57,115 nucleotides of DNA from a virus. The notes below the pieces were generated by a model, which was not told where the DNA came from, searched no databases, and was given only the letters and a program-made list of their open reading frames with translations. A program made the position numbers and the translations under genes. Location of the stretch: IMG/VR virus record IMGVR_UViG_3300048587_000396, positions 1 to 57,115 of that record, one strand, 5' to 3'. The first letter of the stretch is position 1. Each line of letters begins with the position of its first letter. This document shows, piece by piece, positions 2,314 through 32,486 of this stretch.

Positions 2314-4221
2314 ATGACAATGCCCGTCGTCATTCGGGGTCAGCAGTCCGCCGCGGACCCGTGGGAGTTCGTTGCCTCCAGCGAGGCGGTCGACCGATAC
2401 GGCGACGTGGTCATGGCCTCGGCCTGGGACCTTCGCAACTTCAAGAAGAACCCCATCGCGCTGTGGCTCCACTCCGGCGCCAATCCCATTGGCGTCTGGG
2501 AGAATGTCCGCGTCGAAGGCGGAAAGCTGCTCGCCCGGCTGGTCATGGCGAAGCCCGGCACCTCCAGCGTCATCGACATGCTCCGCGGTCTGATCGAGCA
2601 GCGCATTCTGCGCGCCGTCAGCGTGGGGTTCATGCCCAAGAAGTGGGAGGATCTCGACCCCGAAAATCCCAGGGCTGGCCGCCGATACACGAAGGCCGAG
2701 CTTCTGGAGATCTCGGTGGTCACCATCCCCGCGAACCCCGAGGCCCTGGCGGTCGCCAAGTCCCTCGGCATGACCGACGAACTTCAGTCGGCCCTGTTCC
2801 TGCCCAGCGAGTCCGCCGGGTCCGTCTCCAAGTCCTTCACCCGGCCGAACGCCGAACGCACCTCCACGAGGAACACTCCGATGAAGACCCTGGCTCAGCA
2901 GATCAAGGCGCTGGAGGAGGAACTCGTTCTCCACCGCGACAAGGTCACCGAACTCTCCGCCGTCGATCCGACCGAGGAGACCGACACCGAACTGGCCGAG
3001 GCCACCGCTCAGCTGAATGCCGTGACGGACCGCCTCGAGCGCCTCCAGGCGGCGCAGGCCGCGATCGCCCGGAAGGCCGTCGCCCCGCGTGTCGAGCCCG
3101 ATGCCGACCCGAATGCGCCGACGGCGCCGCGCGTCTTCGCCCGTGCCAAGCAGAAGGCGCCGCCCGCGGACATCCTGATGAAGGCGGGCTTCGCGACCTT
3201 CCGCTCCATCGTGACCCGCACGCCGATCGACACCGTGATCAAGGACCTCTACGGCAGCGAGGCCAAGGAGATCGACGTCATCGTGCGCGCCGCGACCGCG
3301 GCGGCGAGCACCACCGTCCCGGCCTGGGCGGGGGAGCTCATCGAGGAGCAGACCGCCGAGTTCGCCACGCTGCTCGTTCCCACGTCCGTGTTCGCGGCCT
3401 TCCCGGGCTTCGGCGTCTCGTTCGACACCACCGGCAAGATCCGCATTCCGGGCCGGAACTACGCGGTCGGCGTGTCCGGCGGCTTCGTGGGCGAGGGTGG
3501 CGCCATCCCGGTGAAGGCCGGTGCGCTCACGTCCATCCTGATGACGCCGCACAAGGTCGCGGTCATCATCGCGCTGACCCGTGAGCTGGCGCAGCGGAGC
3601 TCGCCCGCCGCCCTGCCGCTGTTCCGGCAGATGGTGCTCGAGGATACCAGCATCACGCTGGACACGCTGTTCCTCGACAACACGGCGGCGGTCGCCGGCA
3701 TCCGTCCCGCCGGCATGCAGACCTTCGCCACCGGCGACAACACCCGTGCCTCGTCCGGCTCCACGCTCCAGAACATCATCGCCGATGTGAAGGACATGGT
3801 CAGTCAGATGGGCACGAACCGCCTCGGCCGTCGGCCGGTGTGGATCATGAACGAGGCCAATCGTCTCGGTCTGTCCATGCTGACCAACGACCTCGGCCAG
3901 TTCATGTTCAAGGATGAGATCGGCCGGGGGACCTTCTTCGGCTATCCCATCATCTCGTCGCTGAACGTCCCGACGGGCATCGTGTTCCTCATCGATGCCA
4001 ACGAGATCGTGAAGGCGGCGGAGGGTGCGCCGAACTTCGACGTGTCCGAGAGCGCCACGCTCCACATGGACACCGTGCCGAATGCGGACATCGCGGTTCC
4101 CACCACCGGGATCGTCAGCCTGTGGCAGACGGACCAGATGGGCCTCCGGATGATCTGGGATCTCACGTGGGCCGCGCGTCAGGCGGGTGCCGTGCAGACC
4201 CTCACCGGCGTCGCCTGGTGA
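2314..4221 (+). CDS. Prohead protease - major capsid protein fusion (HK97 fold)
   Basis: One 635-aa frame joins a U35-type prohead protease and an HK97-fold capsid protein. Residues 1-150 are the protease: His53 in WLHSGANPIG, Ser103 in AVSVGFMPKKW, then the typical ISVVTIPANPEA strand. Residues about 190-255 form a charged helical delta or scaffold segment. Residues about 285-635 are the capsid body, ending in the TWAARQAGA region. A GGAG ribosome site precedes ATG 2314; ATG 2320 is possible. An in-frame ATG at 2881 (residue 190) also has a GAGGA about 9 bases upstream, so free capsid protein might be made from it. In most HK97-like phages the portal precedes the protease; here it follows. 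The lead promoter is at 2247-2275. Confidence 0.93.
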   Translation: MTMPVVIRGQQSAADPWEFVASSEAVDRYGDVVMASAWDLRNFKKNPIALWLHSGANPIGVWENVRVEGGKLLARLVMAKPGTSSVIDMLRGLIEQRILRAVSVGFMPKKWEDLDPENPRAGRRYTKAELLEISVVTIPANPEALAVAKSLGMTDELQSALFLPSESAGSVSKSFTRPNAERTSTRNTPMKTLAQQIKALEEELVLHRDKVTELSAVDPTEETDTELAEATAQLNAVTDRLERLQAAQAAIARKAVAPRVEPDADPNAPTAPRVFARAKQKAPPADILMKAGFATFRSIVTRTPIDTVIKDLYGSEAKEIDVIVRAATAAASTTVPAWAGELIEEQTAEFATLLVPTSVFAAFPGFGVSFDTTGKIRIPGRNYAVGVSGGFVGEGGAIPVKAGALTSILMTPHKVAVIIALTRELAQRSSPAALPLFRQMVLEDTSITLDTLFLDNTAAVAGIRPAGMQTFATGDNTRASSGSTLQNIIADVKDMVSQMGTNRLGRRPVWIMNEANRLGLSMLTNDLGQFMFKDEIGRGTFFGYPIISSLNVPTGIVFLIDANEIVKAAEGAPNFDVSESATLHMDTVPNADIAVPTTGIVSLWQTDQMGLRMIWDLTWAARQAGAVQTLTGVAW

Positions 4222-4228
4222 TCTCGGC

Positions 4229-4252
4229 GGGCGGAGCTTCACGGCTCCGCCC
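4229..4252 (+). terminator. Hairpin between capsid and decoration genes
   Basis: GGGCGGAGC pairs with GCTCCGCCC across a 6-base loop, followed by a mixed pyrimidine run (TCTCCCTCTTGTC) rather than a clean T tract. It could be a partial terminator or an mRNA 3' stabiliser that keeps capsid message above that of downstream genes. Confidence 0.4.
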
Positions 4253-4281
4253 GTCTCCCTCTTGTCAGAAGGACCGTTTCG

Positions 4282-4882: not shown

Positions 4883-6265
4883 ATGGGAGCGCTCCAGACC
4901 TTCGCGCGCGGAGCGGTGGCGCTGGTTCAGCGCTCCTTCCCCCGAACATCGGGGGAACCGACTCCGCCGCCCTGGTTCCCGACGAACTGGTGGCAGCTTG
5001 GATTGCGGGTTCCGTCCCGGGGCGTGAACCCGGTGGTCGAGTCCTGCGTCTCGGCCATCACCCAGACCGTCGCCTCGCTTCCGCTGCATCACTGGCGGAT
5101 GCTCCCGAACAACGGCCAGGAGCTCATCCTCAACAGCCCTGCCGCCCGACTGCTCCGCAAGCCGAACCGATATCAGACACGGACGGACTTCATCCTCAAC
5201 TTGCTCCGCAACGAGCTGTTCAACGGGAACGGCTATGCGGTCGGGCTCAAGGACGAGAACTTCAAGTTCGAGAGCCTGCATCTCGTCAACCCGAACTCGT
5301 GCCAGCCGCTTGTCTCGCCCGAGGGCGACGTGTTCTACCAGATCGGTCTGTCGGATATCGCCGCCGGGGTCGCCGGGGTCCAGTCGCTCGTTGTTCCGGC
5401 GGAGGACATGCTGCACATTCGCATGCAGACTCCGCGCAGCCCGCTGATCGGTGAAACTCCGCTCATGGCAGCCGCGCTGTCCATCGACGCAGGGAACGCC
5501 ATCCATCGGCATCTCGCCGGCTTCTTCTCGAACATGACGCGGCCGAGCGGCTTCCTCAAGTCGACCACCGCTCTCAAGCCCGAGCAGGCTGAGATCCTTC
5601 GGACCGAGTGGCAGCAGGCATTCGCCTCCGGAAATGCGGGCCGGGTGGCCGTGCTCCAGGGGGGACTCGACTGGCAGGCTCTGACGATGTCCGCGGTCGA
5701 TGCTGCCATCGTTGAATCCTACCGCATGACGGTGCATGACATCGCGCGCATTTTCCGTGTTCCCCTCTCCGTCATTGGCGAGCCGGGCGGCACGACCTAC
5801 GCGAACACCGAGACGCTGATCCGTCACTGGCTCAGCACCGGCCTCGGTTTCATTGTCGAACATATCGAACTGGCCCTCGACGCGTTGTTCGAGCTCCCGC
5901 CCAACGAGTTCATTTCGTTCGATCTGGAGTATCTGCTGCGAGCTGATTTCGTGGCGCGCGTCGAGGGTCTGACCAAAGGCATCCAGGGTGGCCTGTTCTC
6001 GCCGAACGAGGCCCGAGCCAAGGAAGGTCTGGCGCGTGCCGTCGATGGAGATGAGCCGAGGCTCCAGGCGCAGGTCGTGCCTCTGTCGTTCGCGTCCAAG
6101 ACGCTTCAGGCCGCGACCAACACGCCTCCCGCCGCAGGCAAGGACCCTCCGCCACCCGAAGACGAGCCCGAGGAGGACGAGACCTCCGACGAGCCCGATG
6201 AGAAGTCCACCGAGGCCCTTCACAAGGAGGCTCTCTTCGTGCTGAAGGTGAAAGCCGATGCCTGA
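4883..6265 (+). CDS. Portal protein (HK97 family)
   Basis: 460-aa portal forming the DNA channel at the capsid vertex. Family traits seen are RGVNPVVESCVSAITQTVASLPLH near the N-terminus, the NELFNGNGYAV segment near 110-120, a TPRSPLIGETPLMAA wing region, and IARIFRVPLSVIGEPGGTTYAN near 285-305. The last 50 residues are an acidic, proline-rich tail (EDEPEEDETSDEPDE) unusual for a portal core and possibly unstructured. It follows rather than precedes the protease-capsid fusion. The stop overlaps the next gene by 8 bases. Confidence 0.9.
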   Translation: MGALQTFARGAVALVQRSFPRTSGEPTPPPWFPTNWWQLGLRVPSRGVNPVVESCVSAITQTVASLPLHHWRMLPNNGQELILNSPAARLLRKPNRYQTRTDFILNLLRNELFNGNGYAVGLKDENFKFESLHLVNPNSCQPLVSPEGDVFYQIGLSDIAAGVAGVQSLVVPAEDMLHIRMQTPRSPLIGETPLMAAALSIDAGNAIHRHLAGFFSNMTRPSGFLKSTTALKPEQAEILRTEWQQAFASGNAGRVAVLQGGLDWQALTMSAVDAAIVESYRMTVHDIARIFRVPLSVIGEPGGTTYANTETLIRHWLSTGLGFIVEHIELALDALFELPPNEFISFDLEYLLRADFVARVEGLTKGIQGGLFSPNEARAKEGLARAVDGDEPRLQAQVVPLSFASKTLQAATNTPPAAGKDPPPPEDEPEEDETSDEPDEKSTEALHKEALFVLKVKADA

Positions 6266-7535
6266 GCTCACGTCCCGGGAGTTCGCTCTCCTGCGTGCGG
6301 TGGATGCCGCCCTGGACCAGCGACTCGGTGCCGTCAAGGCCGAAATCATGACCGCCTTCACGGGGGAGTTGGTCAAGCGCGATATCGAGCATCGCGAGCA
6401 GATCGTGTCGTTCCGCGAGCAGTTCATTGGACTGCGCGAGAGTCCACCGCTTGGTGAGGACGATGTCATCCGGCTCATCGGCAGCACCGTTCAGACCATC
6501 GAGGGTCCGCCCGGTGAGCGTGGGCTCGATGGAGCGCCCGGTCGTGACGGCGAGCGGGGTCCACCCGGTGAGCGTGGGCTCGATGGAGCGCCCGGTCGAG
6601 ACGGTGCGGATGGACAGCAGGGTCCGCCCGGTGAGCGTGGGATGCCTGGTGACCGGGGTCCGCCCGGCGAGCCCGGTGAGCGTGGACTGGATGGCGAGCC
6701 CGGACCTCAGGGCCTGCCCGGTGAGCGAGGGCTCGACGGAGCCCCCGGCCGAGACGGTGTCGACGGAGCCCCCGGCAAGGACGGTGAGCGTGGGCTCCAG
6801 GGCGAGCAGGGTCCGCCCGGCCGAGACGGTGTCGACGGAGCTCCCGGCCGAGACGGTGAACGTGGACTCGATGGTGCGCCCGGCCAGGACGGCGGCATCA
6901 CCAGCATCAGTCGCTGGACCGAGGACTATGTCCATCGCGGGCTCGGCCATGTCGTGCTGCACAACGGAAGCTCGTGGTCCGCGGTAGCGGATCCCGAAGG
7001 AGCGGAGCCTGGGACGGACGATCGTTGGAGATGCGTTTCGGCTGGCGTCTCCGATATCACGCTGGAGCAGTCGACTGAGGACCCTCGTAGCCTTGAGCTG
7101 TCGCTGCGTCTCGGTTCCGGTGATGTCACCACCTTCGCGCTCAGTCTGCCGGGGTTCGTGTTTCGTGGGCTGTATTCCGCGGAGGAGGTCTATGGCCTGG
7201 GGGATGTCGTGGCCTGCAACGGTGGGAGTTGGGTCGCAGTCACGGCTGGGAGGCTTGATTCGCCTGGAACCTGCCCTGCATGGGGCTTGCTGACCAAGCA
7301 AGGCAAGCCCGGCAGGCCAGGGCAGTCCGGCGAGCGTGGACCGCCAGGACTGAAGGGCGATGTCGGCCCTCCCGGCACTGGGATCTCGAACATCATGCTC
7401 GAGGGATCGCACTTCGTGGTGGAACTGTCCACGGGGGATGTCAAGACGCTTCCGGTTCCGGGCCTGGAGTCGCTGTTCCATAGGCTCAGCGCCGTCGAAG
7501 CGCATCTCAGCGGGGAGTCGGGCCATGTTTCCTGA
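6258..7535 (+). CDS. Collagen-like virion protein
   Basis: 425 aa. Residues 1-75 are a helical, charged head. Residues about 82-210 are Gly-X-Y triplets (GPPGERGLDGAPGRDGERG style) expected to form a trimeric collagen helix. Residues 215-340 are a non-collagen domain, a second short GPPG tract follows near 350-375, then a C-terminal cap. The DNA under the triplets is itself a near-tandem repeat. The gene overlaps the portal stop and the connector start, so it is co-translated with head and neck genes. It may be a head or neck whisker; its role is not known. Confidence 0.8.
   Translation: MPELTSREFALLRAVDAALDQRLGAVKAEIMTAFTGELVKRDIEHREQIVSFREQFIGLRESPPLGEDDVIRLIGSTVQTIEGPPGERGLDGAPGRDGERGPPGERGLDGAPGRDGADGQQGPPGERGMPGDRGPPGEPGERGLDGEPGPQGLPGERGLDGAPGRDGVDGAPGKDGERGLQGEQGPPGRDGVDGAPGRDGERGLDGAPGQDGGITSISRWTEDYVHRGLGHVVLHNGSSWSAVADPEGAEPGTDDRWRCVSAGVSDITLEQSTEDPRSLELSLRLGSGDVTTFALSLPGFVFRGLYSAEEVYGLGDVVACNGGSWVAVTAGRLDSPGTCPAWGLLTKQGKPGRPGQSGERGPPGLKGDVGPPGTGISNIMLEGSHFVVELSTGDVKTLPVPGLESLFHRLSAVEAHLSGESGHVS
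6508..6895 (+). repeat. Near-tandem repeats under the collagen-like tract
   Basis: Repeating 9-base codon triplets with longer near-identical units, for example the GGTGAGCGTGGGCTCGATGG string near 6512 and again near 6565. Such arrays can gain or lose units in frame and change fibre length. Confidence 0.75.
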
Positions 7536-10651: not shown

Positions 10652-12849
10652 TGGCTAGTGCAGACCTCGTAATCGCATTCGACGCACGCATCGGCAACCT
10701 TGAGGCCGCGCTGCGTAGAACCGAGACATCACTTCGCAGGACCGAACAGCAGGCGAAGGAGACAGGGTCCGCCATGGCGGCGGCCCTCACGGCCGGAGCA
10801 TCGAGCGCAGGAAATTCGCTGCTACTTCTGTCGCGTAATCTGCTTGGCGTCGGCCTGGGCTTCCTCGCCCTTCAGCGCGCGGGGCAGGCCATTGGCGGCG
10901 CGCTCTCGGCCATCGACGCACTCGCGGACGAGGCCGCTTCCATCGGCGCCACCACGAACCAGCTTCGAGCTCTTCAGGTGGCGTTCGAGGAGGCCGGAGG
11001 CAACGGAGACAAGGCGGCCGATGCTTTCGGTAAGCTGAACAACATCATCGGTCAGGCCGGAGACGGAACTGAATCCGCCATCAATCGCTTCGCTTCCTTG
11101 GGAGTCGCTTTCCGCAACACTGACGGAACTCTACGAGGCTCCGCTGACGTCTTCGATGACATCATTGAGAAGCTGCAAGGCATGGAGTCTGCTGCGGAGC
11201 AGATGGCCGTTGCTCAGGAGTTCTTTGGTCGTGGCGCCGCCCGCACCGTAATCGCCGCTCTTGGTGAGATGGAGGGCGGGCTCACGGCAGTTGAGCAACG
11301 ACTCCGCGACATGGGTGCGGCTCTGGGGGACGAGACTCCACAGAGGCTAGACGCTCTGGGAACGGCCTTCGCCAATCTCGGTCGCGTGCTCGGCTCAGCC
11401 ATTGCGAATGCCATCGCGTATGTATCTCCCGTCATTGTGTCGTTCCTGGAGTGGCTCACGGCGCGAGTCGCTGATGCCATCAGATTCATCGAGCGCGTCG
11501 TGCTGGCCGTCGAGCGGATGGCTCGTAGAATTGGTCAGGCATTCGGTGTCATCACGACCACTCCACTGGAGGCTGCTGAGCGCAATCTCCAGGCGCTCGA
11601 GACCCGGATGCAGGGGACCCTTCAGCAGGAACAGCGTCTCCTTGCAGCGCAGCAGAACGCCGCCCGAGACCCAGACTCGTATGCTGCCCGGCTGAACGCC
11701 ACGAACTTGGCGCGTGTCCAGGAGGAGGCTCGCACCGCGACGGATGCCATCGCTATCGCCCGTCGTGAACTGGCCGGTCTTCGTCGTGATGCCGAGCTTC
11801 CGACTCCGCCTACGGTTCCCCCTCTGGCCGCCGCGCCTCCGCAGGCTGTCGGGGGTGGAGGTGGAGGGTCGACTCAGGTTGACGAAATGATTAAGATGGC
11901 GGAGCGACTGTATGAACAGACCCGCACTCCGCTTGAGCGTTTCCGTATTGAGTCGTCTCAGGCAGTAGCGATTTGGAACTCCCGTAACCCCGAAGTTCAG
12001 GCCGCACTCGGCGGGTTCGACACGATCCAGCGTGCGGTGGTGGAGTATGCCGAGAACGCCTATCAGGCTCAGCTTGGTCTGGGTCGCACTTCGGCGGAAG
12101 CTCAGGCCGCCATTCAGCAGTCGATCACTGCCACGGGGGAACTTCTGGTCGGACGAGGCGCTCTGTCGTGGGAGCAATGGGCTCAGGTTGCCACGGCAGC
12201 GAATGCCGCAGTCGGGCGAGCGGCTGACGACACCGCGAAAAGAACGCAGCAGTCCATCGATTCGGCGGCAGGAGCTATCAACGGAGCTCTTTCCAGTTCT
12301 TTCGTTGCTCTCGGCACCGGAGCTGCGACCATCGAGGATACGTGGAAGAAGCTGCTGTCCAACATCCTGCAGACGGTCATCCAGTTCGTGTATGAGATGA
12401 CCATCCAGGCTGCCATCCTGAGACTTCTGAAGTCGGCCTTCTCGGCTTTCGGTGGCGCGTTCACCGGAACAAGTGATCCAACCCCCATTCCGGGAGGCGG
12501 GGGCGGATTGGGTCTGCTGTCTTTCTCCGGATTTTCCGAGACCTCCGGCGCCTTGCTCGGCGACGGAGAGGCGGCGACGTTCGCCTCGTCCCTGACGGCA
12601 GGAGGCGGGGCTGCTGGTGTCGGTCGCGGTCTGGTGACCGTTGAGCCGAGACAGGACACTGAGGTGAACGTCGCCGTCTACAATAACTCGTCAAACACCA
12701 CTACTCGCCAACAGGAACGGACCAATGGTCTCGGCGGGAAGGAGGTCGATATCTACATCGAGAATGTGGTCCGTCAGGGACTGATGACCGGGCGCTACGA
12801 TAACGTCATGGGTCAGTCCTTCGGGGCCTCTCGTAGGGGAGTCGTCTGA
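10651..12849 (+). CDS. Tape measure protein
   Basis: 732-aa protein that sets tail length and may help DNA entry. The N-terminus is a coiled coil (NLEAALRRTETSLRRTEQQAKE). Residues about 55-95 and 245-285 are hydrophobic helices, and the middle is alanine- and glutamine-rich helix. A PPLAAAPPQAVGGGGGG linker near 390-405 separates the two halves. The C-terminal third has another hydrophobic segment (LSNILQTVIQFVYEMTIQAAIL). By the usual 1.5 Å per residue rule the tail would be near 110 nm; this is an estimate. Confidence 0.85.
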   Translation: MASADLVIAFDARIGNLEAALRRTETSLRRTEQQAKETGSAMAAALTAGASSAGNSLLLLSRNLLGVGLGFLALQRAGQAIGGALSAIDALADEAASIGATTNQLRALQVAFEEAGGNGDKAADAFGKLNNIIGQAGDGTESAINRFASLGVAFRNTDGTLRGSADVFDDIIEKLQGMESAAEQMAVAQEFFGRGAARTVIAALGEMEGGLTAVEQRLRDMGAALGDETPQRLDALGTAFANLGRVLGSAIANAIAYVSPVIVSFLEWLTARVADAIRFIERVVLAVERMARRIGQAFGVITTTPLEAAERNLQALETRMQGTLQQEQRLLAAQQNAARDPDSYAARLNATNLARVQEEARTATDAIAIARRELAGLRRDAELPTPPTVPPLAAAPPQAVGGGGGGSTQVDEMIKMAERLYEQTRTPLERFRIESSQAVAIWNSRNPEVQAALGGFDTIQRAVVEYAENAYQAQLGLGRTSAEAQAAIQQSITATGELLVGRGALSWEQWAQVATAANAAVGRAADDTAKRTQQSIDSAAGAINGALSSSFVALGTGAATIEDTWKKLLSNILQTVIQFVYEMTIQAAILRLLKSAFSAFGGAFTGTSDPTPIPGGGGGLGLLSFSGFSETSGALLGDGEAATFASSLTAGGGAAGVGRGLVTVEPRQDTEVNVAVYNNSSNTTTRQQERTNGLGGKEVDIYIENVVRQGLMTGRYDNVMGQSFGASRRGVV

Positions 12850-23540: not shown

Positions 23541-24410
23541 TCAATCCTCACGAATACCTAGGAACACCGGGAACCGCGGCTTCTCTTTGATGCCCGTGGG
23601 CTGGAAGCGATACTTGACAATCTTGCCTACCGGGGGGTTCGCCCAGAACTCGGCTCTCGTTGCCTCGTCCATCCCCGTTCCAATCTCGAACTCGATGCCG
23701 GTCACCAGGTCTCGCACGCGAAGCGAGCCAGTGGTTCCCTTGGGATGGCGGTTCGCCTTGTGGCTGGAGCGCTTCATGGTCCCAAGCGCATTCCTCACTT
23801 GCTCGTTGTCGTTGCGCATCTGCTCGTCGATGCTGAGTATGAGCGCCTCGCTGTCCTCGAACCTCTTAAGCTTGAGGAGCTCGCCCGTGCGGGCGCTGGC
23901 CCGGCCAAACTTGTAGAGGCTCATCGGATCACGCAGCATGATGCCCTCGTATCCCTTCGACAGGATGTGGGCTTCGTAGTCCAGGACCTCAGCCACGGAG
24001 GCGACCTTGACTTGCTGAAGCTTGCGAACGGTGATGTGGCCATCCGGGTCCGCGTCGAACGTTGAGGGCAGACGGGCGAAGCGCGAGACGAATGCGTCCT
24101 GCGGCATATCGAACCTGTCGAATACCCAGAAGCTCACGCGGGGGACGCCATCCTCGCTCATGACCGCCGAGGTCGTGCGATGGAATGCCTGCGGATGCCA
24201 CGATGGCGACGTCACCAGTTCGCCGTCCAGACCGTTGTGCGCGTGGTCCCCCAGATGCGTCTGGAGATAGACGTTGGGGATGGGCTTGATGCGTCTGCTG
24301 ATCAACACTCCGTCGATTACCAGGGCGCGGATGCCGTCCAGCTTGGGACTGGCGAGTAGCGGGAAGGTGAGGCGGTCGATGACCGCTTTTCCTGAGAGCA
24401 TAGGCTTCAT
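23541..24410 (-). CDS. ATP-dependent DNA ligase
   Basis: 289-aa compact ligase. The adenylated lysine is Lys23 in motif I, SPKLDGIRAL; motif III-like VSFWVFDRFD and motif IV EGIMLRDP follow, then LLKLKRFED (motif V). The C-terminal half is the OB fold (SLRVRDLVTGIEFEIGTG, KYRF). No extra DNA-binding domain is present, as in T7-like phage ligases. It overlaps the next upstream gene's stop by 4 bases. Confidence 0.9.
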   Translation of the reverse strand: MKPMLSGKAVIDRLTFPLLASPKLDGIRALVIDGVLISRRIKPIPNVYLQTHLGDHAHNGLDGELVTSPSWHPQAFHRTTSAVMSEDGVPRVSFWVFDRFDMPQDAFVSRFARLPSTFDADPDGHITVRKLQQVKVASVAEVLDYEAHILSKGYEGIMLRDPMSLYKFGRASARTGELLKLKRFEDSEALILSIDEQMRNDNEQVRNALGTMKRSSHKANRHPKGTTGSLRVRDLVTGIEFEIGTGMDEATRAEFWANPPVGKIVKYRFQPTGIKEKPRFPVFLGIRED

Positions 24411-25066
24411 GGCTGTAGCGTAACCCCATGGCGTTCGTTAAGCAAGCGCCAGCGGCTCCCTATGAACCGCTGATCGGCCTCGCTGATTGCGACTGGTTGA
24501 GCGTATCTCGCGGCCACCTCCTCCGTGGTTTCGAACTTCCCAGCGTTCATCTTCGTGGAGCGCGTTGGAATTCGCCAGTCTCCAGCGCGGCGCGGCAACG
24601 GTAGCCCCGCCAACACGCTTGCGATGTTCGCCACAAGCTCCTCATAACGAATGTGGTGACGCTTGAGCGGGTGAGTGTAGGACCTGAGCTTCTCGTGATA
24701 GAGCTCCAGCAGCGACGGATAGGTGTGATAGAACACCTGGTCACGGGGGATCGCTATCCACGGCGCTCGAATGAACTCGCTGAACGTCGCCTGCACCGGG
24801 CTCTCGCGATGCTGGATGTTGAAGTCCACCTTGATCGTGCTCTTGCGCGACATCTCGTAAGGACGCCGATACATCGAGACGAGCCAGTTCTCAGGACGCT
24901 TGGAGATCGTCAGGCAGAACACTTGATCGTGCTCGGGAACAAGGTTGATCCTGCCGTGCTTCCATCCAAGTCTGTCCGTCAGTTCGACATCGAAGTTCGC
25001 CTTGATGAGCTGCGACAGGAAACGAGTTCCCGTGTTCCGCTCACCGTAGATCTTACAGCGCATCAC
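24407..25066 (-). CDS. Sulfotransferase-like protein
   Basis: 219 aa. The start IYGERNTGTRFLSQLIKANF matches the 5'-phosphosulfate-binding loop of phage and bacterial PAPS sulfotransferases (GER.SGT pattern at 8-14). CLTISKRPENWLVSMYRRPY near 50-70 resembles the 3'-phosphate-binding motif (R-P-..W..S). Substrate is unknown: it could be a glycan, a cell-surface molecule or modified DNA. It lies between ligase and an SNF2-type helicase with small overlaps, so it is expressed with DNA genes. Confidence 0.65.
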   Translation of the reverse strand: MMRCKIYGERNTGTRFLSQLIKANFDVELTDRLGWKHGRINLVPEHDQVFCLTISKRPENWLVSMYRRPYEMSRKSTIKVDFNIQHRESPVQATFSEFIRAPWIAIPRDQVFYHTYPSLLELYHEKLRSYTHPLKRHHIRYEELVANIASVLAGLPLPRRAGDWRIPTRSTKMNAGKFETTEEVAARYAQPVAISEADQRFIGSRWRLLNERHGVTLQP

Positions 25067-27710: not shown

Positions 27711-28047
27711 CGTGATTTCCTTTTCAAAGAGCGTTTGCTGGCGATGCTGCCAGCCCGTGAAGCCTGCCAGCCGGGGCCTCCCGGCGCAAGTGTTGCCGAC
27801 CGGCCACAGTGAGGTGGCAAATCTGCAACAGATCGCGGCCAGGGCGCCAGCCGGGGGGCTCCCCAGCCCTGCCTCGGCCGTAAAGCCTCCCAGGCCGACG
27901 CTGGCGCCGCGAGGCCCTGGCGCCATGCTGCCCTAGCCTCGAACTTCGCAGGGCGCCTCTGGCGTCGGTTAGCAATATATACCTACGGCGAAAGGCCCGA
28001 CTCCGGGTGGCAATCCCTAAAATGTGAGCCGGCGATCAATTTAACGA

Positions 28048-28209
28048 TTGCATCATTACGGAAGTAATCGCTATTCGCGCGCACCCTCGCGCTGGCGCCT
28101 TCCGCCGGTGGACCGCCCTGGCGGCGAACCGTTGCGCTGGCGGCTCAGCCCTGGCGTTCGGCCGCCCTGGCGCCCTCCGCCGGCACGTCGCGGCAGGCGT
28201 CGTTTTTTG
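28048..28209 (+). ncRNA. Candidate small RNA unit (weak)
   Basis: TTGCAT (28048-28053), 18 bases, TATTCG (28072-28077) resembles a promoter. A run of six T at 28203-28208 follows a GC-rich segment with only short stems (CGCC/GGCG and GCCG/CGGC). A transcript of about 120 bases could arise. No homology is known to me. Confidence 0.2.
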
Positions 28210-28245
28210 ATTGGCCTGCGGAGGCCCTGGAGGTAGAACAACTTC

Positions 28246-28301
28246 ACCGGGGGGCGGCACCCTCCGGGCGGTTCCCAGGGCAAGGGGTTCCGCCCCCCGG
28301 T
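28246..28301. other. 12-bp perfect inverted repeat
   Basis: ACCGGGGGGCGG at 28246-28257 and CCGCCCCCCGGT at 28290-28301, with a 32-base loop that can form further stems. No T tract follows on either strand. It may be an RNA structure or a protein-binding site. Confidence 0.5.
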
Positions 28302-28586: not shown

Positions 28587-28645
28587 AGGCGGCTTCGGCC
28601 GCCTCACTCTCCAAGCCGCCGGTCAATTCGGCGGTTTCGAGAGTG
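28587..28645 (+). promoter_or_regulatory. Two-hairpin leader element, copy 1
   Basis: Hairpin A: AGGCGGC, loop TTCG, GCCGCCT (28587-28604). Hairpin B: CACTCTC, C, AAGCCGCCG, 7-base loop, CGGCGGTTT, C, GAGAGTG (28605-28645), with a C/C mismatch between outer and inner stems. It ends 36 bases before the ATG at 28682. Confidence 0.75.
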
Positions 28646-28681
28646 TGCAATCATGCATCACTCAGTCAAGGGAATTCTATC

Positions 28682-28942
28682 ATGTCCACTTCCAACCTGC
28701 GTTGCGGCGAGTTCAAGTTCGACTTCACCGGCGTCAAGCCGAAGGTCACGCGCTACCGTGGCAAGGTCGCCAATACCGTCAAGAACTTCGCGCTCATGCG
28801 CGTCTGCAAGGACTACGCCGGCTATGTCGCCGCCTGCCAGCGTCGCGGTCAGTCCCGCGCTCACGCGTGGGGCATGGTGGACTGGGCCGCGCGTCGCGGC
28901 CTGCTCCGCACTCCGGGCACCGAGGCGTGGCGCGGGGAGTAA
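28682..28942 (+). CDS. Small basic protein, unknown
   Basis: 86 aa; AAGGGA before the ATG. Basic and aromatic, with two cysteines (LRCGE, MRVCKDYAGYVAACQ). The segment NTVKNFALMRVCKDYAGYVAACQRRGQSRAHAWGMVDWAARRG is helical and could bind nucleic acid. First gene of the rightward island and preceded by leader copy 1. Confidence 0.6.
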   Translation: MSTSNLRCGEFKFDFTGVKPKVTRYRGKVANTVKNFALMRVCKDYAGYVAACQRRGQSRAHAWGMVDWAARRGLLRTPGTEAWRGE

Positions 28943-28958
28943 TCCCTGCGCTGCGTCA

Positions 28959-29021
28959 GGGGGAACCTCAGCGTTCCCCCGGTCGCCAAAGTCGCCGGTT
29001 AATCTGGCGGCTCCGGCGACC
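28959..29021 (+). promoter_or_regulatory. Two-hairpin leader element, copy 2
   Basis: Hairpin A: GGGGGAAC, loop CTCAGC, GTTCCCCC (28959-28980). Hairpin B: GGTCGCC, AAA, GTCGCCG, 7-base loop, TGGCGGC, TCC, GGCGACC (28981-29021). The internal loop is larger than in the other copies. It ends 33 bases before GTG 29055. Confidence 0.7.
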
Positions 29022-29054
29022 GGAAATCCTTCCGGTCATTCGCAGGAGGCCATC

Positions 29055-29315
29055 GTGGCGAAGCGAAAGTATCAGCGCATCAACATCACGCTCAACGCGC
29101 GCCAGCGCGACGCCATCATCAAGCGCGTCCGCGCTGACAAGTTGATCGGCATCGGCACCTGCTCGTCAATCGACGAGTGCATGACCGACGAGGAAGTCAT
29201 CGAATACTGCGAGCGCCTCGGCATCAGCGGCGCTTGCATGGCGGTCGCCGAACTGCGCCGCAAGGAAGCCCTCTACCGCGAGATGGAACGCTCCGTCCGC
29301 AACGAAATCTTCTGA
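29055..29315 (+). CDS. Small helical protein, unknown
   Basis: 86 aa from GTG 29055 with a strong AGGAGG site. The N-terminus (VAKRKYQRINITLNARQRDAIIKRVRADKL) looks like a ribbon-helix-helix or small DNA-binding start; the rest is helical with Cys in GTCSS, DECMT, EYCERL and GACMA. Function unknown. It follows leader copy 2. Confidence 0.6.
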   Translation: MAKRKYQRINITLNARQRDAIIKRVRADKLIGIGTCSSIDECMTDEEVIEYCERLGISGACMAVAELRRKEALYREMERSVRNEIF

Positions 29316-29327
29316 AAGGAAATCAGC

Positions 29328-29573
29328 ATGTCACCGTTCGAGAGAGTTCTGGCCGCGTTCGAGGCGGATGTCGGCGTCAAGTATGACCAGGCTCAGCGCA
29401 CGCTGGCCGCGTTCGAGTGGGGGAAACTCCCCGTCTCGGATGTCGCCTTCGTCAACAGCCTCACCGACGAACAGCTCGACGAGCTCTGCAACGCGGATCC
29501 CGAGGAGCGCCCCTACATCAGCGACGAGCTGCACGCGGCTCTCGAGGAAATCTTCGAAATCATCGGTTCGTGA
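29328..29573 (+). CDS. Small acidic protein, unknown
   Basis: 81 aa; GAAAGGAAA before the ATG, 12 bases after the preceding stop and with no leader element. Mostly helical and acidic (TDEQLDELCNADPEERPYISDELHAALEEIFEIIG). Possibly an anti-host or DNA-mimic type protein by charge, which is only inference. Confidence 0.55.
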   Translation: MSPFERVLAAFEADVGVKYDQAQRTLAAFEWGKLPVSDVAFVNSLTDEQLDELCNADPEERPYISDELHAALEEIFEIIGS

Positions 29574-29587
29574 AAGGAACCTCCATC

Positions 29588-29803
29588 ATGCCGAAATTCA
29601 TCGTCGTCTCGTCCAAGGAAAACGAGATCAAGGGGCTCGCGTGGTATCTGCGCGGCACGACCTGGGCGGGCTCCACGGAGCGCGCCGACAAGTTCGACTC
29701 GCGCGAGGCGGCGCAGGCTGCGCTCGACCGAGCCAAGAAGTTCAGCGTCCGGCGCATCTACAAGGACTGGTTCATCCGGGAGCTGGGCGACGTCCACGTC
29801 TAA
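29588..29803 (+). CDS. Small hypothetical protein
   Basis: 71 aa; GAAAGGAACC before the ATG. Begins KFIVVSSKENEIKGLAWYLRG and contains a DKFDSREAAQAALDRAKKF helix, reminiscent of small phage proteins with a beta-alpha-beta layout. No function assigned. Confidence 0.55.
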   Translation: MPKFIVVSSKENEIKGLAWYLRGTTWAGSTERADKFDSREAAQAALDRAKKFSVRRIYKDWFIRELGDVHV

Positions 29804-29810
29804 CGGCCTC

Positions 29811-29871
29811 GCGGGGGAGTTCGCGCTCCCCCGCTCGCTCGAGCCGCCTCGCGGGGCGGTTCCAGCGAGCG
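29811..29871 (+). promoter_or_regulatory. Two-hairpin leader element, copy 3
   Basis: Hairpin A: GCGGGGGAG, 6-base loop, CTCCCCCGC (29811-29834). Hairpin B: GCTCGCT, C, GAGCCGCC, 6-base loop, GGCGGTTC, C, AGCGAGC (29833-29870). A and B share bases 29832-29834, so full forms may exclude each other. Ends 32 bases before ATG 29903. Confidence 0.8.
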
Positions 29872-29902
29872 GTATCCGCTGCTCGAGTTCAGGAGAAACG
29901 AA

Positions 29903-30121
29903 ATGATCACGCACATCACCAAGGACCACGCCGTCGAGGTGTTCATCCACGACTTCAGCGCCTTCGCGTCGGACCTCGGCTGGCCTCCCGGCACGGTCCC
30001 GACCAAGGTCGGCACCGATCTCGGCAATCGCCAGCCCTTCCTGCTCGCGAAGGCGGACGGCGAGATGTTCGTCTATCAGCAGGCGAACGGCTGCATCAGC
30101 CTCACCGTGTTCAACGACTAG
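29903..30121 (+). CDS. Small hypothetical protein
   Basis: 72 aa; TTCAGGAGAAACG site before the ATG. Contains HAVEVFIHDFSAFASDLGWPPG and a short beta region ending ISLTVFND. No known family. Follows leader copy 3 at the same distance as copy 4 precedes its gene. Confidence 0.6.
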   Translation: MITHITKDHAVEVFIHDFSAFASDLGWPPGTVPTKVGTDLGNRQPFLLAKADGEMFVYQQANGCISLTVFND

Positions 30122-30131
30122 AGCTCGCGCG

Positions 30132-30160
30132 TTGCGCGACGCTCAACAGCCTGCTACCAT
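30132..30160 (+). promoter_or_regulatory. Sigma70-like promoter inside the small-gene island
   Basis: TTGCGC, 17 bases, TACCAT, starting 11 bases after the preceding stop. A hairpin (GCCGGGGG/CCCCCGGC) and CAGGAG site follow before GTG 30215. Confidence 0.6.
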
Positions 30161-30214
30161 GCGCCAGCCGGGGGGGCGCACCTCCCCCGGCGCTCTTCAA
30201 CAGGAGATCCCAAC

Positions 30215-30919
30215 GTGGATAAGATAGTCGCCCGTATCAAGAAGCTGCTCGCCCTCGCCGGGAACAACTCGAGCGAGGCCGAGGCCCTGCTCGCCATGGA
30301 AAAGGCCCACGAGCTGCTCGCGCAGCACGGCCTCAGCATGTCGAGCGTCACGCAGGAGCACGCCGAGAAGCGGCTCAACCAGCCTCAGCGCGTCATGCGG
30401 ATGCCGTGGGAGATCACGGTCTTCAGCGCGCTCGGCAAGCTGAACTTCTGCTCCACCTACACGATGCGCTACGGCGGAGGCAAGACGGTCTTCTTCGTGG
30501 GTCGCGAGTCGAGCATCGAGACCGCGCGCCTCATGGCGGAGTTCGTCATCGAGACCATCACCCGGCTGTCCAGCGAGGCCGCTCGGGAGTTCCGCAAGGC
30601 GGAGGGCGCCACCGAAAAGCAATGGTTCGACTATCGCCGGTCGTTCCGCTTCGCGGCCGCGACCCGCATCCACGAACGCTGCCTCGACCTTCGCCGGGAG
30701 CGCGAAGCCGGTCCGACGACCACCTCCTCGGGCACGAACCTCCCCGCCCTGGCCTCGCTCTACTCGCAGGAAACCAAGGCGAACCAGCTCACGCTCCAGC
30801 AGCACGGCATCACCCTCAAGAAGGGACCGGCCAGCCGCATCAAGCTCAAGTCGAGCAGCGGATATGCGGCGGGTCGTGCGGCGGGGGACACCATCGCACT
30901 CAACCGACAGGTCCGGTGA
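30215..30919 (+). CDS. DUF2786-type protein
   Basis: 234 aa from GTG 30215. The N-terminus KIVARIKKLLALAGNNSSEAEALLAMEKAHELLAQHGL is the DUF2786 signature, a helical domain found in phages and plasmids. The rest contains a beta region (GGGKTVFFVGRESS, not a P-loop) and a basic C-terminus (KKGPASRIKLKSSSG). Function of the family is not known to me. It has its own promoter. Confidence 0.7.
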   Translation: MDKIVARIKKLLALAGNNSSEAEALLAMEKAHELLAQHGLSMSSVTQEHAEKRLNQPQRVMRMPWEITVFSALGKLNFCSTYTMRYGGGKTVFFVGRESSIETARLMAEFVIETITRLSSEAAREFRKAEGATEKQWFDYRRSFRFAAATRIHERCLDLRREREAGPTTTSSGTNLPALASLYSQETKANQLTLQQHGITLKKGPASRIKLKSSSGYAAGRAAGDTIALNRQVR

Positions 30920-30923
30920 CGGG

Positions 30924-30979
30924 CAGGGGGAACTTCCCCCTGATCCCCCGAGCCGCCTTGCGGGGCGGTTCCGGGGATC
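30924..30979 (+). promoter_or_regulatory. Two-hairpin leader element, copy 4
   Basis: Hairpin A: CAGGGGG, loop AACTT, CCCCCTG (30924-30942). Hairpin B: GATCCCC, C, GAGCCGCC, 6-base loop, GGCGGTTC, C, GGGGATC (30942-30979). The inner stem is nearly identical to copy 3, while the outer stem is fully different yet paired. Ends 32 bases before ATG 31012. Confidence 0.8.
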
Positions 30980-31011
30980 GGCATCCCGCCGTCCATTCAG
31001 GAGAACGGAAA

Positions 31012-31299
31012 ATGAACAGCGTCATGAACGCCATGCGGGACAGGCTGCACCGTCAGGTGACCGCCTTCACCGGATGGAAGCTCGACTGGAGCGAGACCGA
31101 CGTCTCCGACCTGGTGACCGAGGCGTCGTTCGAGATCCCGGATCGGGACTTCAACCTCTGGGTCGAGCTTCGGCCCGCGAACAAGGTTCGCCTCGCCTTC
31201 TTCAACGAGCAGGACGAGGACATCCAGGACGCCATGCCCGAGATGCTTCCCCGTCTGATCGGCGAGCTCACCCTCGCCGGCTTCCAGGTGGAGGGCTGA
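31012..31299 (+). CDS. Small hypothetical protein
   Basis: 95 aa; ATTCAGGAGAACGG site. Sequence begins MRDRLHRQVTAFTGWKLDWSETDVSD, with a beta-rich middle (FEIPDRDFNLWVELRPANKVRLAFF) and a helical end. No family recognised. Follows leader copy 4. Confidence 0.6.
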   Translation: MNSVMNAMRDRLHRQVTAFTGWKLDWSETDVSDLVTEASFEIPDRDFNLWVELRPANKVRLAFFNEQDEDIQDAMPEMLPRLIGELTLAGFQVEG

Positions 31300-32245: not shown

Positions 32246-32486
32246 GGCCGACGCCTAGAGCCCTCCACGGCGCCCCGGTATGGCGCCCCGCGCCTAGGCG
32301 CCCCGGCTGGCGCCCTGCCCTGCCCTGGCGGCGCCCTGGCGCCCTCTAGGCTGGCGCCCTGCCCTGCCCTGGCGCCCCGGCTGGCGCCCCGGCTGGCGCC
32401 CTGCCCTGGGAGGCGCCCTGCCCTGGCGCCCCGGCTGGCGAGGCCCGGCTGGCGCCCTGCCCTGCCCTGGCGCGGTCGGGACCGCC
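32246..32486. repeat. GGCGCC-rich repeat array
   Basis: About 240 bases built from CCCTGCCCTGG, CGCCCCGGCTGGCGCC and CCCTGGCGCC units; GGCGCC or CGCC strings recur many times. A 17-base unit occurs at 32301-32317 and 32387-32403, and inverted at 27840-27856. It separates the rightward island from the leftward block. A minus open frame across it (32242-32538) is low-complexity Arg/Gly/Pro and is not called as a gene. Confidence 0.8.

Follow-up and report, generated by a model that had tools for sequence, protein, structure and literature searches.

Four Covarying Two-Hairpin Elements Ahead of Small Phage Genes as Possible Sites of mRNA Processing or Protection

Introduction

What maintains the same pair of adjacent hairpins ahead of four small genes of one phage, while part of the paired sequence changes from copy to copy? 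The question is raised by the 57,115-base IMG/VR virus record IMGVR_UViG_3300048587_000396 from an uncultivated phage, which was analysed as a whole (positions 1 to 57,115, hereafter the window). Genes in this part of the window lie mostly on the − strand, and the four elements, named E1–E4, accompany a + strand island of small genes that runs from 28682 to about 32250. Few RNA elements are known to govern early phage operons with no dedicated protein involved; four compensated copies in one genome provide a natural variant set for testing the requirements of such an element, and a covariance model built from them can be used to find others.

Architecture of the Elements

By sequence reading and folding, a hairpin A abutting a longer hairpin B was found on the + strand at 28587–28645 (E1), 28959–29021 (E2), 29811–29870 (E3), and 30924–30979 (E4), with a total A+B length of 56–63 nucleotides (nt). 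The initial annotation had described the same A-then-B plan at the same positions, except that it ended E3 at 29871, one base too far. Hairpin B is built from an outer stem of 7 base pairs (bp), a 1 × 1 mismatch, an inner stem of 8 bp, and a loop of 6 or 9 nt; the mismatch is C.C in E1, E3, and E4 and A.C in E2, so that the C/C mismatch is kept in three copies, as had been noted. In E1, hairpin B (28605–28645) pairs CACTCTC with GAGAGTG in the outer stem and AAGCCGCC with GGCGGTTT in the inner stem; in E2 (28981–29021), the outer arms are GGTCGCC/GGCGACC and the inner arms AAGTCGCC/GGCGGCTC; E3 (29833–29870) and E4 (30942–30979) have the inner arms GAGCCGCC/GGCGGTTC in common, with GCTCGCT/AGCGAGC and GATCCCC/GGGGATC, respectively, as outer arms.

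The sequence of hairpin A is variable between the copies. E1 has a 7 bp AGGCGGC/GCCGCCT stem with a UUCG loop (28587–28604), E2 an 8 bp GGGGGAAC/GTTCCCCC stem (28959–28980), E3 a stem of 10 bp as scored with the core GGGGGAG/CTCCCCC (29811–29834), and E4 a CAGGGGGA/TCCCCCTG stem (30924–30942). The longest A stem overlaps B by 2 bases in E3 and by 1 base in E4; the sharing of bases between A and B that had been pointed out in two copies is therefore real, but the suggestion that the two hairpins exclude each other is weak because the overlap amounts to just 1–2 bases in two copies. A third hairpin, C, may form 3′ of B on its outer 3′ arm and is possibly a likelier competitor of B than A is. It would lie at 28641–28663 in E1, 29018–29037 in E2, and 29867–29884 in E3, weakly in each case, and at 30974–30987 in E4; its energy gain against dinucleotide shuffles corresponds to P values of 0.05, 0.05, 0.09, and 0.86 (E1–E4, with E3 entered one base off), E4 being no better than the shuffles, and hairpin C is treated as unproven because it is only marginally better than shuffled sequence.

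Covariation and Chance Tests

The alignment of hairpin B from the four copies (A3) shows standard pairing in 59 of 60 cells, and both sides have changed in 8 of its 15 pairs. When the partner strand is slid by 1–3 columns, 33–47% of cells remain paired, a comparison that favours the unslid pairing since the structure was derived from these same sequences; the covariation score was reached by none of 500 shuffles. Because E1–E4 are paralogues of one genome, only a few independent events stand behind these counts. The claim that compensatory change is evidence for the importance of the RNA fold is upheld, and selection on the fold is supported. The outer stems, which had been said to differ completely between copies while staying paired, do stay paired, and all of their differences are compensated; the complete difference was overstated. 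Out of 7 pairs, E2/E3, E2/E4, and E3/E4 differ in 2, 2, and 3, respectively, so that these three copies have 4–5 of 7 pairs in common, and E1 stands apart with 6, 7, and 4 pairs different from E2, E3, and E4. E3 and E4 are 82% identical over 50 nt.

A scan for two-part hairpins over the 57 kb window returned exactly E1–E4. In 1,492,045 bases of collected loci, both strands, there are 55 distinct two-part hairpins, among which the four of the window hold energy ranks 1, 2, 3, and 9. An abutting stem of at least 6 bp together with an energy of −22 or lower is found in 8 of the 55, four being those of the window; look-alikes therefore arise elsewhere. An abutting stem of at least 7 bp is present in all four elements and at 5.6% of 20,000 random positions in other collected loci. 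A covariance model (R1) built from the four copies, as the initial annotation had proposed, matches E1–E4 alone in the window, at 50–54 bits, against 29–34 bits for their own complements and 13 bits for the next match. The + strand folds better than its complement in 4/4 elements, by 1.4–2.9 kcal/mol for A+B and by 2.8–3.7 kcal/mol for B alone.

Placement and Transcription Signals

Hairpin B ends 36, 33, 32, and 32 nt ahead of the start codon in E1–E4, which agrees with the range of 32–36 bases given earlier, and hairpin A begins 16, 7, and 4 nt past the preceding stop codon in E2, E3, and E4. E1 stands at the front of the island. Four gaps of the island are longer than 90 nt; three of them hold A+B (E2, E3, and E4), and the fourth, ahead of the gene at 30215, holds a lone A-type hairpin without B (30167–30191, + strand). 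The short gaps of 12, 14, and 1 nt hold no elements. A scan of 27.7–32.7 kb found no sigma-70-like promoter, and no + strand terminator-like site was found by scanning at E1–E4, where a single − strand terminator-like site coincides with hairpin A of E1; co-transcription of the island is plausible on account of the missing promoters and + strand terminator-like sites. The mean unpaired probability of the Shine-Dalgarno region is 0.46–0.65, that is, the region is not strongly occluded.

A Possible Role in mRNA Processing or Protection

It has been reported (PMC4858673) that several RNase III sites in the polycistronic early transcript of T7 give rise to monocistronic and dicistronic messages. 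By analogy, E1–E4 might be intercistronic mRNA-processing or protection elements, and this reading is tentatively preferred, with somewhat less than an even chance of being correct, because the copies, in their number and placement, best match the processing of a polycistronic early transcript. Like the T7 sites, they are multiple intergenic hairpins upstream of start codons in what would be one transcript, given co-transcription; E1–E4 differ from the T7 sites in that a constant inner sequence and hairpin A are added, and cleavage of E1–E4 is hypothetical. The helix of E1–E4 is presumably also shorter than those of the T7 sites.

The elements would act in cis as RNA structures in the gaps, and at the front, of a single polycistronic + strand transcript. 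Hairpin A would close the 3′ end of the preceding message, and hairpin B would shield the 5′ end of the following one; an endonuclease of the RNase III type would cut in or beside the helix of B, two short helices around a mismatch, yielding mRNAs of one or a few cistrons whose 5′ end is structured and whose Shine-Dalgarno sequence, about 20 nt downstream, stays free. Recognition would fall on the constant inner stem, including its mismatch and G.U pair, and the outer stem would just have to pair; possible readers of the constant core are a nuclease, a protein, and RNA polymerase. Processing or protection is supported by the long gaps holding hairpins and the short gaps holding none, by the start of A 4–16 nt past a stop codon and the end of B 32–36 nt ahead of a start codon, and by the persistence of pairing through change of the outer sequence. 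It is also supported by a relative of the phage found through its terminase, G005, in which simple hairpins lie just ahead of a Shine-Dalgarno sequence and start codon. The hairpins seen at 11188 and 12184 of its locus L185 are simple G+C hairpins in that position.

Several points weigh against this role. The 15–17 bp of hairpin B are short for a classical RNase III substrate, and a nuclease that reads only the double-stranded shape needs no constant inner sequence. E1 has a hairpin A though no + strand cistron precedes it, and in E3 and E4 hairpin A is so near the stop codon that a terminating ribosome would cover it. Island promoters may also be invisible to the scan.

Alternative Explanations

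The paired hairpins had been said to recall the put RNAs of phage HK022, and a put-like antiterminator without the put sequence would bind elongating host RNA polymerase through A+B and suppress pausing or termination along the island. Antitermination by put works via the β′ zinc-binding domain of RNA polymerase. The general likeness holds: like put, described as two adjacent stem-loops of about 70 nt, E1–E4 consist of two abutting hairpins (56–63 nt), and in both the inner part of the second hairpin is nearly constant and the outer part covaries, the put RNAs having 19 predicted pairs with 6 two-sided changes, five of them in the outer stem of hairpin II. Placement is also comparable, since put sites are near early genes, lying just after early promoters or, as in HK75 putR, ending 39 nt ahead of cII. 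Family membership does not hold. The HK022 putL site was identified by its match to 23 of 23 residues given in PMC9378689 (15 at the next best site) and agrees with records in which putL is annotated. A model (R3) built from seven put sequences scores putL at 92.8 bits and putR at 41.1 bits in HK022, a sanity check given that near-identical copies are inside the model, but finds no match to E1–E4 up to an E value of 10, and the element model R2 finds none in known put sites. With no model match in either direction, E1–E4 were rejected as members of the HK022 put family. The conserved stem I of put (CGAACGGC..) also has no equivalent, as hairpin A differs between copies, and put occurs once per early operon, whereas the window has four copies; within 2.4 kb these would be superfluous if one put acts over 10 kb, as reported in PMC9378689. 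E1–E4 may thus still work in a put-like manner by analogy, a reading that we regard as unlikely.

The near-constant inner stem beside a free outer stem would also be expected of a repeated RNA operator, in which a phage or host RNA-binding protein reads the inner stem, mismatch and G.U pair included, and co-controls translation of the small genes, the outer stem acting as a clamp; the near-constant distance to the start codon and a possible B/C switch would fit. Control of this kind is doubtful given that the Shine-Dalgarno region is not strongly occluded, that hairpin C is just marginal, and that none of the island proteins scanned matched an RNA-binding family, the predicted structures of two of them being too poor for use (mean predicted local distance difference test scores of 53 and 59). 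If the hairpins instead served as passive insulators that keep the ribosome binding site clear of pairing with upstream sequence and stop 3′ exonucleases without being specifically recognised, the likeness of the inner stems would reflect recent copying. The A hairpins and the lone hairpin at 30167 are indeed unlike in sequence, E3 and E4 are closely alike, and CAAGCCGCC..GGCGGTTTC hairpins are frequent in phage leaders; recent copying alone is, however, insufficient where the outer arms have changed with compensation and the inner stem, mismatch, and G.U pair are nearly the same, which makes insulation rather improbable. Least probable is an element acting as DNA, such as a recombination or cassette-joining site or an operator: its repetition ahead of small ORFan genes, in an island absent at the same place from a syntenic relative, is opposed by the G.U pairs of the sense strand, the better folding of that strand in all four copies, and the fixed orientation and spacing to start codons.

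Known Families and Look-Alikes in Other Viral Records

Other known systems give no identity for E1–E4. Rfam 15 returned nothing above the gathering threshold in the window, the best match being mir-3130 at 23.8 bits (gathering threshold 95), so that known Rfam families were rejected; this does not test put, because the HK022 early region also gave no Rfam match. According to PMC3203893, the extended start-associated sequences (ESAS) of cluster K mycobacteriophages are inverted repeats of unknown function that precede the start codons of some non-structural genes. Unlike E1–E4, they keep the sequence of their arms and are attached to a 13 bp start-associated sequence (SAS); with up to 3 mismatches, the SAS (GGGATAGGAGCCC) has 21 matches in the window, where 22.4 are expected, and none of them lies at a start behind E1–E4. 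ESAS were rejected on these grounds. Intergenic intrinsic terminators of phages with the form CAAGCCGCC..GGCGGTTTC plus a T run have nearly the same inner stem and often lie just ahead of a Shine-Dalgarno sequence and start codon, a placement seen in L114, L119, L127, L143, L147, L159, and L162. E1–E4 differ in having no T run, with an outer stem and an abutting A instead; with no + strand site at the elements either, an intrinsic terminator was rejected. A published description of such an element was not found in the literature listings searched or in passages of PMC9378689, PMC3203893, PMC12699233, PMC4858673, and PMC3014915, subscription journals being mostly uncovered.

Scans of viral contigs with the inner-stem pattern gave 27, 40, and 52 stretches, and the exact E3/E4 core occurs in none of the GTDB species genomes. 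When 59 distinct inner-stem matches in the collected loci were scored for an outer stem, the four of the window passed the cut, as did L005 and two terminator-like matches with T-run tails, L078 and L092. Matches behind capsid-like genes (L006, L007, L018, and L027) were rejected as members for their larger internal loops and weaker outer stems. Among 53 distinct pattern-drawn matches with both mismatch C's, only L144 (7) and L141 (5) have outer stems with 5 or more pairs, two against a permuted mean of 0.37 (P 0.046); their inner stem and C.C mismatch were selection criteria and hence no evidence. L141 has a 7 bp stem abutting on the 5′ side by script, and L144 has a 5′-abutting 7 bp TGGCCGG/CCGGCCA stem in its fold, scored 0 by the script due to a long loop. 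The distance to the next start codon, 26 nt in L144 and 15 nt in L141, is shorter than for E1–E4. L144 lies between a small gene and a gene that we take to be helix-turn-helix regulator-like, a setting that would suit a put-like antiterminator. The two records have almost nothing in common with the window in the parts read, apart from one 32% match. Pair counts with L144 and L141 added are biased because R1 ranked both partly by outer stem.

L144 and L141 are suggestive, from sequence, as further examples of the element, each a single copy ahead of a start codon. Homologues of the gene behind L144, in 6 records with 3 regions read, are without the element, and the sole Blast match to the L144 leader was a 26 nt piece, present in five Aeromonas phages. 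It is conceivable, if improbable, that E1–E4 belong to a new class of RNA element of early phage genes that has spread among unrelated phages, with a variable A and a B of fixed core and covarying clamp, which would act alone on host RNA polymerase or nuclease and be present here in four copies, one per gene cassette.

Neighbouring Genes and Relatives of the Phage

All genes of the island described here lie on the + strand. The gene behind E1 (28682–28942) encodes an ORFan of 86 aa, and that behind E2 (29055–29315) an ORFan with a GTG start, followed by two genes without elements (29328–29573 and 29588–29803) at gaps of 12–14 nt; E3 precedes an ORFan of 72 aa (29903–30121), and E4 one of 95 aa (31012–31299). 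Nearly all of the island genes scanned were without family; the gene at 30215–30919 (234 aa; DUF2786/DUF7168, phrog_421) has distant relatives in 15 phage records, the best at 38.8%. No relatives were found for the genes at 28682, 29055, and 29903 among named phages, or for the proteins from 30215 (234 aa) and 29903 (72 aa) in viral contigs.

The large terminase of the window is HK97-type, with a best named match of 42.7%, and its relatives number 18 in viral contigs (IMG/VR) and none in genome contigs. The family A DNA polymerase has a distant likeness (35–38%) to those of Pseudomonas siphophages; as the sole query against viral contigs it gave no match. One of the 18 terminase relatives, the 44 kb record G006, is syntenic, with a polymerase at 52%. 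The island genes have no match in G006, of which 36 of 44.4 kb were compared, searches of the full record with the DUF2786 protein and the element models gave no match, and homologues of genes from both sides of the island are near neighbours there. The island was therefore probably gained later here, or else lost in G006.

A near-perfect palindrome of 56 nt at 28246–28301 (ACCGGGGGGCGGC...GCCCCCCGGT), in the gap ahead of the island, is among the strongest folds of the window, and both flanks of the island carry CTGGCGCC/CCCTGCCCTG-rich repeats (27840–28230 and 32250–32480). Farther away, a 13 bp hairpin at 4226–4255 lies 4 nt past the end of an open reading frame (ORF) at 4221 and 26 nt ahead of a Shine-Dalgarno-plus-start match. 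The ORF at 24407–25066 (− strand) has an N-terminus that presumably recalls a sulfotransferase-type protein, and an ORF of the structural region (6258–7535) contains collagen-like G-x-x repeats.

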